This document shows positions 60,528 to 62,242 of a stretch of DNA of 64,000 nt, in pieces. The stretch comes from Caldimonas mangrovi (GTDB taxonomy: Bacteria; Pseudomonadota; Gammaproteobacteria; Burkholderiales; Burkholderiaceae_C): assembly GCF_023721835.1 (NCBI RefSeq), contig NZ_JAMKFE010000001.1, forward strand, positions 372,001 to 436,000, in the 5' to 3' direction. Positions within the stretch are counted from its first letter, which is position 1. Every line of letters starts with the position of its first letter. Position numbers and translations under genes: made by a program. The notes below the pieces were generated by a model. It did not search any database. It saw only the letters and a program-made list of their open reading frames with translations, and was not told the DNA's origin.

Positions 60528-61338
60528 ATGCTGTCACGCACTGCTGACCACTTGTTCTGGATGGCCCGGTACATGGAGCGGGCGGCTCAAGCGGCTGCGG
60601 CGCTTGGACGGCGCGGCCATCAGAGTACCGCGCACGCGCCCGCGTGCAGCGGTGTTGCCGGCCTGGGAGCTTGCTGAAATGCTGTCACGCACTGCTGACC
60701 ATTTGTTCTGGATGGCCCGGTACATGGAGCGGGCGGCTCAAGCGCCTGCGGCGCTTGGACGGCGCAGCCGTCAGAGTACCGCGCACGCGCCCGCGTGCAG
60801 CGGTGTTGCCGGCCCGGGAGGTTGCTGAAATGCTGTCACGCACTGCTGACCATTTGTTCTGGATGGCCCGCTATATGGAGCGGGCGGCTCAAGCGCCTGC
60901 GGCGCTTGGACGGCGCAGCCGTCAGAGTACCGCGCACGCGCCTGCGTGCAGCGGTGTTCTCGGCCTGGGAGGTTGCTGAAATGCTGTCACGCACTGCTGA
61001 CCATTTGTTCTGGATGGCCCGCTATATGGAGCGGGCGGCTCAAGCGCCTGCGGCGCTTGGACGGCGCAGCCGTCAGAGTACCGCGCACGCGCCTGCGTGC
61101 AGCGGTGTTCTCGGCCTGGGAGGTTGCTGAAATGCTGTCACGCACTGCTGACCATTTGTTCTGGATGGCCCGCTATATGGAGCGGGCGGCTCAAGCGCCT
61201 GCGGCGCTTGGACGGCGCAGCCGTCAGAGTACCGCGCACGCGCCTGCGTGCAGCGGTGTTCTCGGCCTGGGAGGTTGCTGAAATGCTGTCACGCACTGCT
61301 GACCATTTGTTCTGGATGGCCCGCTATATGGAGCGGGC
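60528..61338 (+). repeat. Tandem array of 151-bp units (five plus a 56-bp partial) at the 5' end of the alpha-E gene
   Basis: Unit starts (ATG of MLSRTADHL) lie at 60528, 60679, 60830, 60981, 61132 and, as a 56-bp partial copy, 61283, exactly 151 bp apart. Each full unit is ATG, 49 codons, TGA, one base, next ATG. Codons 1-18 duplicate the start of the alpha-E gene; the remaining ~95 bp (starting GCGGCTCAAGCG) encode a tail ending in LGGC or similar. GGGAGG sits 8 nt before the ATGs of units 2-5. Units 3-5 look identical, unit 2 differs slightly and unit 1 most. Because 151 is not a multiple of 3 no fusion protein arises. Confidence 0.93.
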
Positions 61339-62242
61339 CGAGAACACCGCCCGCATGCTGGACGTCAACTACCAGATGGGCCTGTTGCCGCAGTCGGCCG
61401 AGATGGCCGAGCAGGGCTGGCGCAGCCTGCTGAGCATCAGCGAGTTGACCGAGGATTTCACGCGGCGCTATGCAGACTTCAGCCCACGCGAGGTGATGAA
61501 CTACATGGTGCACGACGAGAGCAATCCGTCGAGCATCTCCAGCTGCCTGAAAGCCGCACGCGAGAACGCGCGCGCGGTGCGCGGCGCCCTGACGACCGAG
61601 GTGTGGGAGACACAGAACCAGACCTGGCTGGAATTCCACCGCCAGTTCGACGGTGCGCGCTTCCAGCGCGACCCCAGCGAATGCTTCGAGTGGGTCAAGT
61701 TCCGCTCGCACCTGTCGCGCGGTGTCACGCTGGGCACCATGCTGCAGGACGAGGCCTTTCATTTCCTGCGCATCGGTACCTTCCTGGAGCGGGCTGACAA
61801 CACCGCGCGGCTGCTCGACGTGAAGTTCCACGGCATGGGTGACGAATTTTTTGGTGCCAGTAGCCAGAAGGACGTCGAGTACGACTTCTATCACTGGTCG
61901 GCGATCCTGCGCTCGGTCTCGGGCTTCGAGGTCTATCGCAAGGTCTATCGCAACGTGATCCAGCCGGAGAAGGTAGCCGAACTGCTGATCCTGCGCGCCG
62001 ACATGCCGCGTTCGCTGGCCGCGTGCATGAACGAGGTCGTGGCGAATCTGCTGGCGGTGGCGAACGAGCAGTCGAGCCAGACGCAGCGGCGTGCCGGGCG
62101 GCTGCGGGCCGATCTGCTGTACGGGCGCATCGACGAAATCCTGGCGACCGGGCTGCATGCCTATCTGACGCAGTTCCTCGACCGCGTGAACGATCTGGGC
62201 GCCGGCATCAGCCAGGACTTCCTGGTGCCGGTGACCGGCTGA
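61283..62242 (+). CDS. Alpha-E domain protein (DUF403)
   Basis: 319 residues from ATG 61283, with GGGAGG 8 nt upstream; an in-frame ATG at 61097 only extends into the repeat array. Alpha-E family features: MLSRTADHLFWMARYMERAENTARMLDV, ARENARAVRGALTTEVWETQNQTWL, and FLRIGTFLERADNTARLLDVKFH. Such all-helical proteins occur next to circularly permuted ATP-grasp proteins and transglutaminases and probably act together in peptide-bond chemistry. The last stop is 165 nt before the transglutaminase start. Confidence 0.92.
   Translation: MLSRTADHLFWMARYMERAENTARMLDVNYQMGLLPQSAEMAEQGWRSLLSISELTEDFTRRYADFSPREVMNYMVHDESNPSSISSCLKAARENARAVRGALTTEVWETQNQTWLEFHRQFDGARFQRDPSECFEWVKFRSHLSRGVTLGTMLQDEAFHFLRIGTFLERADNTARLLDVKFHGMGDEFFGASSQKDVEYDFYHWSAILRSVSGFEVYRKVYRNVIQPEKVAELLILRADMPRSLAACMNEVVANLLAVANEQSSQTQRRAGRLRADLLYGRIDEILATGLHAYLTQFLDRVNDLGAGISQDFLVPVTG

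Follow-up and report, generated by a model that had tools for sequence, protein, structure and literature searches.

Why should a gene be preceded by five copies of its own beginning, and do those copies serve it? The question is raised by a 64,000-nucleotide stretch of Caldimonas mangrovi DNA (contig NZ_JAMKFE010000001.1; hereafter the window), in which TRF delimited a tandem array at 60528-61338 with a period of 151, 5.4 copies, 98% matches, no indels and a score of 1510. Five full 151-bp units (60528-61282) are followed by a sixth, partial copy, which is the first 56 bp of an alpha-E gene (PF04168, 319 aa, 61283-62242), all on the forward strand; the five tandem start copies described in an earlier note on this DNA were thus confirmed. 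The units lie at 60528-60678 (unit 1; mini-ORF 60528-60677, 49 aa), 60679-60829 (unit 2; 60679-60828), 60830-60980 (unit 3; 60830-60979), 60981-61131 (unit 4; 60981-61130) and, adjoining the gene, 61132-61282 (unit 5; 61132-61281), and each holds a 49-codon ORF from ATG to TGA, then a single A and the next ATG, again as had been noted. Unit 5 is composed of a gene-start copy (61132-61187) and an insert (61188-61282) in which a Shine-Dalgarno-like GGGAGG (61269-61274) precedes the alpha-E ATG. BLAST with a unit-5 query (window 61130-61290, with a few flanking bases included) gave 100% identity for units 3-5, 96% for unit 2 and 94% for unit 1, which agrees with the noted identity of the last three units and fits the recent expansion on the 3' side that had been proposed. 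Because 151 is 3x50+1, in-frame fusion of a window unit is impossible, as the earlier note had also reasoned. The same query returned no match at E <= 0.001 beyond the array in the 5.5-Mb draft genome, and no promoter or terminator pattern was found within the array. The array is inside a 530-kb contig of this 53-contig draft, and the number of identical 151-bp units (three) could be an assembly miscount.

The array sits within a recognizable gene neighbourhood. The assignment to the alpha-E family (PF04168) was confirmed, as was the match of the first window mini-ORF to residues 1-23 of that family. Upstream, on the same strand, is a circularly permuted ATP-grasp gene (PF14403, 59088-60524) whose stop begins 6 bases ahead of the unit-1 ATG, and downstream a transglutaminase-like gene (PF01841 and PF08379, 62407-63243, forward strand, start codon uncertain). 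Searches for a solved relative of alpha-E gave none by sequence and none by fold at E <= 0.001 (best E 0.74). PMC3597751 links alpha-E to a peptide synthesis or modification system, of which operons combining alpha-E, ATP-grasp and transglutaminase genes are there said to be part.

The earlier note had treated the array as a local duplication, and surveys of related genomes revealed that the arrangement recurs. When 60 relatives were searched at the DNA level, whole-unit matches, 68-75% identical, turned up in four further genomes, in each case where alpha-E begins. Among named genomes, 79 of 80 loci were examined (L112 was left out, its start motif not fitting) and six carried a unit (L039, L047, L049, L062, L097 and L115), the genomes being those of Rubrivivax gelatinosus DSM 1709 (L039, with a single unit), a laboratory phototroph, and of Acidovorax sp. 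FJL06, together with four metagenome assemblies. A pattern survey of 399 genomes of the family, 305 of them with any match (<=2 mismatches), detected at least two adjacent copies of the alpha-E start in 30 genomes from 18 genera and no adjacent second copy in the other 275. When 17 of the adjacent-copy genomes were searched again, all 17 had copies 138-206 bp apart (the locus of G023 being the same as L009). Extending the survey to the order (300 genomes, of which 66 gave a match) added two further adjacent pairs, one at 188 bp in a genome of another family (G617) and one at 140 bp, with one copy decaying, in a genome of the same family (G162), and a class-wide survey (115 genomes, 23 with a match) found no adjacent pair except that of the window genome.

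The module so defined lies ahead of alpha-E and consists of copies of that gene's start, between one and five in number, with a hairpin-rich insert after every copy. Our working set contained 40 such loci with 52 units, 32 loci having a single unit and eight having two to five, after L038 had been dropped as a duplicate of L020; these loci are related, so that counts over them are of non-independent events, and at L168 and L170, which lie near contig ends, the unit number is a lower bound. For comparison there were 89 leaderless loci, L174-L176 being excluded from the tests of constraint, stop splicing, complementarity, tree and blind third-base pairing, and 92 in the count of TCTAG motifs described below. 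Unit periods extend from 137 to 206 bp, with all three classes modulo 3 represented, and unit number varies between one and five among species (one genome per species compared). Since the module is widespread and 32 of the 40 loci have one unit, what recurs is a leader module and not copy number. Some genomes carried more than one alpha-E locus: G294 has two (L165 and L166), each with its own leader units, at periods of 140 and 149 bp, while G206 (L170 on contig 151, L176 on contig 143) and G405 (L174 on contig 63, L175 on contig 70) each have two alpha-E genes, with the first 99 bp identical in the former and an identical start of ~116 bp in the latter. These two gene pairs diverge after the shared start, at about 30% of all compared bases, and their contigs end just upstream, which suggests either that loci have exchanged their gene starts or that assembly is responsible.

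We also asked whether the unit occurs elsewhere. Searches with an insert covariance model and BLAST (12 genomes; own genome) gave strong matches at alpha-E only, for which reason a mobile element inserted at several unrelated sites was set aside as a candidate, with the proviso that diverged copies could escape the insert model. This model was weak on diverged inserts, missing the known unit of G031 and giving chance-like values for G018 (E 0.009) and G023 (E 0.001). Eight weaker loci that it returned were inspected, and most overlap long ORFs, one resembles a terminator hairpin and none has the unit arrangement; among 30 loci from this search, a flanking direct repeat was present at alpha-E loci only. 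A scan of 1,610,295 bases (the window, G000 contig 1, G257 and G294) for direct repeats 70-319 bp apart found no clear case of another duplicated gene start. Other tandem repeats were seen in the scanned DNA, namely tRNA pairs, an intergenic repeat and one at a gene 3' end. The last of these (L236 18096-18359, at about 454.1-454.4 kb of G000 contig 1) repeats the 3' end of a 657-codon gene, acetyl-CoA synthetase-like by eye, together with the downstream stretch, 125 bp apart; three tandem repeats of G257 (L188 15517-15748, L198 7844-8143 and L199 17795-17964; 132, 100 and 84 bp) have no visible tie to a gene start.

One rival account of such a pattern is neutral: replication slippage at hairpins would have produced tandem duplications that are functionless debris beside a working gene. 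The patchy distribution of the module and the presence of other tandem repeats in these genomes are in keeping with it, as is the near-identity of many copies to their own gene, codons 2-18 being identical at 7 of the 40 loci, and one close pair of loci reads as a clean loss. We nevertheless consider neutral duplication quite unlikely, both because the 1.61 Mb scanned held no other clear gene-start duplication and because of the four features that follow, namely the kind of differences between unit and gene, the sharp boundary of their identity, the position of the stops and the covariation of the insert with the gene.

Comparison of each gene-proximal unit with its own gene over codons 2-18 yielded, for the 40 loci, 121 codon differences, of which 110 were synonymous and 11 changed an amino acid. 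A random substitution in these codons is synonymous in 22% of cases (32% for transitions), and a unit free to change, with equal rates on both sides, would be expected to show ~190 amino-acid differences per 110 synonymous ones (55 synonymous on the unit side x 0.776/0.224). Gene conversion would erase both kinds of difference alike, so the ratio is not its product; nor is divergence lacking, at least one synonymous difference being present in 32 of the 40 loci and at least three in 19, with amino-acid differences in nine. At every codon from 2 to 19 unit and gene encode the same residue in no fewer than 38 of the 40 loci, and identity then falls abruptly, to 18/40 at codon 20, 4/40 at codon 21, 3/40 at codon 22, 21/40 at codon 23 (Ala) and 0/40 at codon 24. 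Between sister species, in pairs that were hand-chosen and overlap, mini-ORF tails of equal unit length had 62 synonymous and 291 amino-acid differences, and the copied part had 185:32 against 208:6 for the gene's own start. By this comparison of sequences the unit copies are under constraint, somewhat less than the gene's own start, and a few of them look decayed (L047, L178). The earlier note, which had divided the unit into gene start and other sequence, overlooked both this constraint on residues 1-18 or 19 and, as shown below, an arm of the insert that covaries with gene codons 19-23.

Constraint of this kind suggests a leader that is translated and whose N-terminal residues are of consequence. 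It would also be expected of a trans-acting microprotein of 39-70 residues, a decoy or subunit made of the alpha-E N-terminus, for which the coupling to the gene would be secondary. Among the constrained residues 2-19 is a Glu-Arg pair, which may correspond to Pfam's ER motif, and an AlphaFold model (mean pLDDT 76) has residues 4-33 as one helix, both of which would suit such a protein. The tail is unconstrained, however, and varies in length and frame, and the placement of the stops and the covariation between insert and gene require a role in cis, which makes a microprotein acting in trans an unlikely primary function.

The stops are placed with some precision. In all 52 units of the 40 loci the mini-ORF, 39-70 codons long and open for at least 20 codons past codon 19, ends within the range -21 to +8 relative to the next ATG, through tails of varying length and frame. 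When leaders were spliced in silico to the 89 leaderless alpha-E starts, a stop by +8 was expected at 13.7 of 40 gene-proximal positions, and 40 of 40 were observed; where the stop falls within the gene (29 loci), an average of 0.09 per locus was expected. Different devices achieve the same end: in 26 units the stop, at +4, is a TGA or TAA formed from codons 2 and 3 (e.g. ATGCTGA, ATGCTAA, ATGTTAA), in nine it is a TAG, at +8, within TCT-AGR, and in 17 it falls ahead of the next ATG. One of the Shine-Dalgarno-like 4-mers GGAG, AGGA or GAGG precedes 49 of the 52 next starts. The reinitiation ladder proposed for the window in the earlier note thereby gains comparative support, as a property of leaders that mostly occur singly.

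In many loci the insert is predicted to form two or three hairpins, and its 3' arm, which we call arm C, is a 14-base segment starting 24-40 bases ahead of the ATG. In the window, folding of the unit-5 insert predicts H1 (61192-61210, CAAGCGCC TGC GGCGCTTG), H2 (61211-61225, GACGGC GCA GCCGTC) and H3 (61226-61263), all on the forward strand; arm C (61253-61266) is complementary at 14 of 14 positions to codons 19-23 of the gene (61337-61350), and because it is overlapped by the 3' side of H3, that hairpin competes with the leader-gene stem. Over all leader loci arm C matched its own gene's codons 19-23 at a mean of 12.5 of 14 positions, compared with 11.0 when it was set against genes from the remaining loci and 8.6 when upstream sequence was shuffled, and complementarity of at least 12/14 was found in 31 of 40 leader loci and in none of the 89 leaderless ones. 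In the best-match register the third base was complemented in 40/40 loci at codon 19 (gene C 20, A 16, T 3, G 1) and in 39/40 at codon 20 (gene A 22, G 17), the covariation at codon 20 having a Fisher p of 2e-11 over 39 loci, uncorrected for kinship. As that register is chosen by the best match to the locus's own gene, which favours the gene, the alignment was also set blind to the third bases of codons 19 and 20; these then matched in 39/40 and 38/40 loci, together 77/80, with 17/87 and 24/89 for leaderless loci treated likewise. Where the third base differs in the unit's own copy, arm C under the blind register agreed 33 times with the gene, once with the unit and once with neither, and under the unblinded one it agreed with the gene in 35/35; over all aligned columns at which gene and unit copy differ, the unblinded counts were 188 for the gene, 10 for the unit and 17 for neither. 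On a quick tree codon 20 changed 11 times among leader loci, and the five pairs on supported branches were all concordant (p 0.06). Taken as comparative evidence, the amino-acid constraint, the stop placement and this covariation point to selection.

A mutational origin of the covariation was weighed as well, in which template switching repeatedly rewrites arm C as an inverted copy of the gene and the pairing has no function. Arm C is indeed an inverted copy of gene codons 19-23, and quasi-palindrome correction is a known mutation process. Such templating would be expected to remove mismatches, and these persist: a G stands opposite A at position 1 of codon 22 in 25/40 loci, and positions 1 and 2 of codon 20 are mismatched in 9/40 and 14/40. 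Templating moreover leaves the stop placement and the peptide constraint unexplained, and we regard it as very unlikely.

What the arm would do is less readily read from static folding. The stem between arm C and the gene had a predicted probability above 0.5 in 33 of the 40 loci (mean per locus) and of only 0.0035 in the window, where a competing fold wins and hairpin H3 uses arm C. The start codon was predicted to be on average more open with arm C than without it (locus averages 0.47 and 0.35), the reverse being predicted in the window (0.49 with and 0.61 without), which does not support a simple hiding of the start; in these models arm C looks like an arm with two partners and not a simple start cover. 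Searches for a known RNA family (Rfam 15, seven loci) gave nothing above the gathering score, the best hit in the units being chrB-b with 24.0 against 36.5 bits; that match is on the reverse strand of the insert (L007 1572-1626, 1723-1777 and 1874-1928, minus) and is probably due to chance. RNAalifold on A1 was weak, with a covariation term of -0.17. A hand-set cloverleaf of seven sequences was only modestly above shuffles (its covariation score was reached by 15 of 500 and its both-sided pairs by 106 of 500), and nothing was rested on it. The hairpin loops have a character of their own, being of the form c(GNA)g or c(GNNA)g in 43 of 71 hairpins whose stem is 5 or longer and in 11 of 22 whose stem is 7 or longer; among control hairpins with stems of that latter length, taken from 30 of 78 stretches and counted by slightly different rules, the figure was 7 of 459. 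Loops of these types are very stable in single-stranded DNA, so that the insert hairpins may conceivably have a role at the DNA level.

We think it somewhat probable, on balance, that the module is a translated and translationally coupled leader ORF that controls alpha-E by means of an RNA arm with two partners, and that is sometimes lost or amplified. In this scheme ribosomes would initiate at the ATG of a unit and translate its copied codons and then its hairpin-rich tail; on reaching the stop, which lies at or beside the following ATG, they would begin anew at that ATG, while arm C would pair either within the unit or with gene codons 19-23. With two partners available to the arm, ribosomes moving along the leader would switch the RNA structure near the start of alpha-E, and selection on residues 1-19 suggests that the leader peptide is probably itself a signal, whether nascent or free, as it might be in feedback by the alpha-E and ATP-grasp partners; the extra units of the window would add relay steps. 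We infer translation of the leader in cells, reinitiation as the main route and the switching function of arm C, as we do the regulation of alpha-E, the sign of that effect and the thing sensed. Several observations weigh against the coupled leader: the window's own stem between arm C and gene is predicted to be rare, the unit copies are less constrained than the gene start, most relatives with alpha-E (275/305) do without the module, its presence calls for many gains or losses, and the covariation at codon 20 comes down to only five independent supported pairs.

The history of the module bears on the last of its proposed properties. When mapped on a quick tree built from 129 alpha-E proteins, its presence required at least 23 changes, 13 of them on supported branches, compared with 34 for shuffled labels, a pattern that indicates repeated gain or loss. 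In the close pair L068 and L151, the former consists of the upstream context of L151 unit 1 joined to the gene copy of L151, which reads as scarless loss of a unit, and L068 retains a TCTAGA stop device with no apparent present use. TCTAG(R) was found in 13 of the 92 leaderless loci (L025, L026, L054, L061, L064, L068, L070-L074, L076 and L105), and such TCTAGR motifs may be relics of leaders since lost. Within the window array, arm C matches the gene at 14/14 positions in units 3-5 and at 12/14 in units 1-2, and it seems to be the gene-proximal unit that was amplified. A phase-variable locus, in which unit number changes within populations and sets alpha-E output, would account for the identity of units 3-5, for the range of one to five units among loci and for a close pair with and without a unit. 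With a single unit in most loci, and synonymous differences between unit and gene that indicate that the exchange of copies has not been rapid in the 32 loci that have them, we do not think phase variation a likely explanation.

A further reading is that the leader start also makes alpha-E, ribosomes bypassing the insert after codons 1-19 and picking up again at codons 19-20 of the gene, with arm C, able in many folds to pair with either edge of the gap, as their guide. If true, this would be programmed joining of ORFs over 137-206 nt in bacteria, and it would explain why residues are constrained up to codon 19 and not beyond. According to PMC5009743, programmed bypassing in T4 gene 60 and Magnusiomyces mitochondria involves a structured gap with matched sequence at both ends, and the alpha-E insert is likewise a structured gap with matched ends whose length need not be a multiple of three. 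It differs from T4 gene 60, as described there, in the size of the gap (50 nt in the phage gene, 137-206 nt here) and in having no stop directly after the possible take-off codon. Leaders that stop at the next start suit reinitiation better, so that bypassing fits the placed stops less well, and we hold it to be highly improbable.

A coupled leader of the kind favoured here would, if real, be an unusual control design, in which a gene is regulated by a copy of its own beginning, the leader peptide sampling the N-terminus of the gene product and the leader RNA reading the gene's own codons. The 40 loci constitute an evolutionary record of third-base covariation and of varied stop-start devices, and the module offers a handle on the alpha-E, ATP-grasp and transglutaminase operons. 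Gene finders could easily miss such leaders, as they resemble truncated gene fragments.

Among the literature matches listed we found no description of a leader built from its target gene's own start, and the nearest known systems each share part of the arrangement. Mobile hairpin repeats of the REP/MITE type are short, hairpin-rich and sometimes in tandem, and so are the alpha-E units, which unlike those repeats were found at alpha-E only, in searches of limited sensitivity for diverged copies. In the erm and cat translational attenuators a short upstream ORF with its own ribosome-binding site stops at the next start, amid competing RNA structures. The alpha-E leader resembles them in being a short upstream ORF with a ribosome-binding site, a stop at the next start and predicted competing structures, whereas it differs in being a copy of the first 18-19 codons of its own target, in having an arm predicted to pair with gene codons 19-23 and in its capacity to occur in tandem. 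CruR (DUF2946), encoded by a Bordetella upstream ORF and controlling the genes that follow through its nascent product, is presented in PMC9426467 as an independent copper-sensing family that acts via Rho-dependent termination. On that description CruR and the alpha-E leader are both bacterial upstream ORFs with control, proposed in our case, through the nascent product, and they differ in origin, since the alpha-E leader derives from the very gene that it would control.
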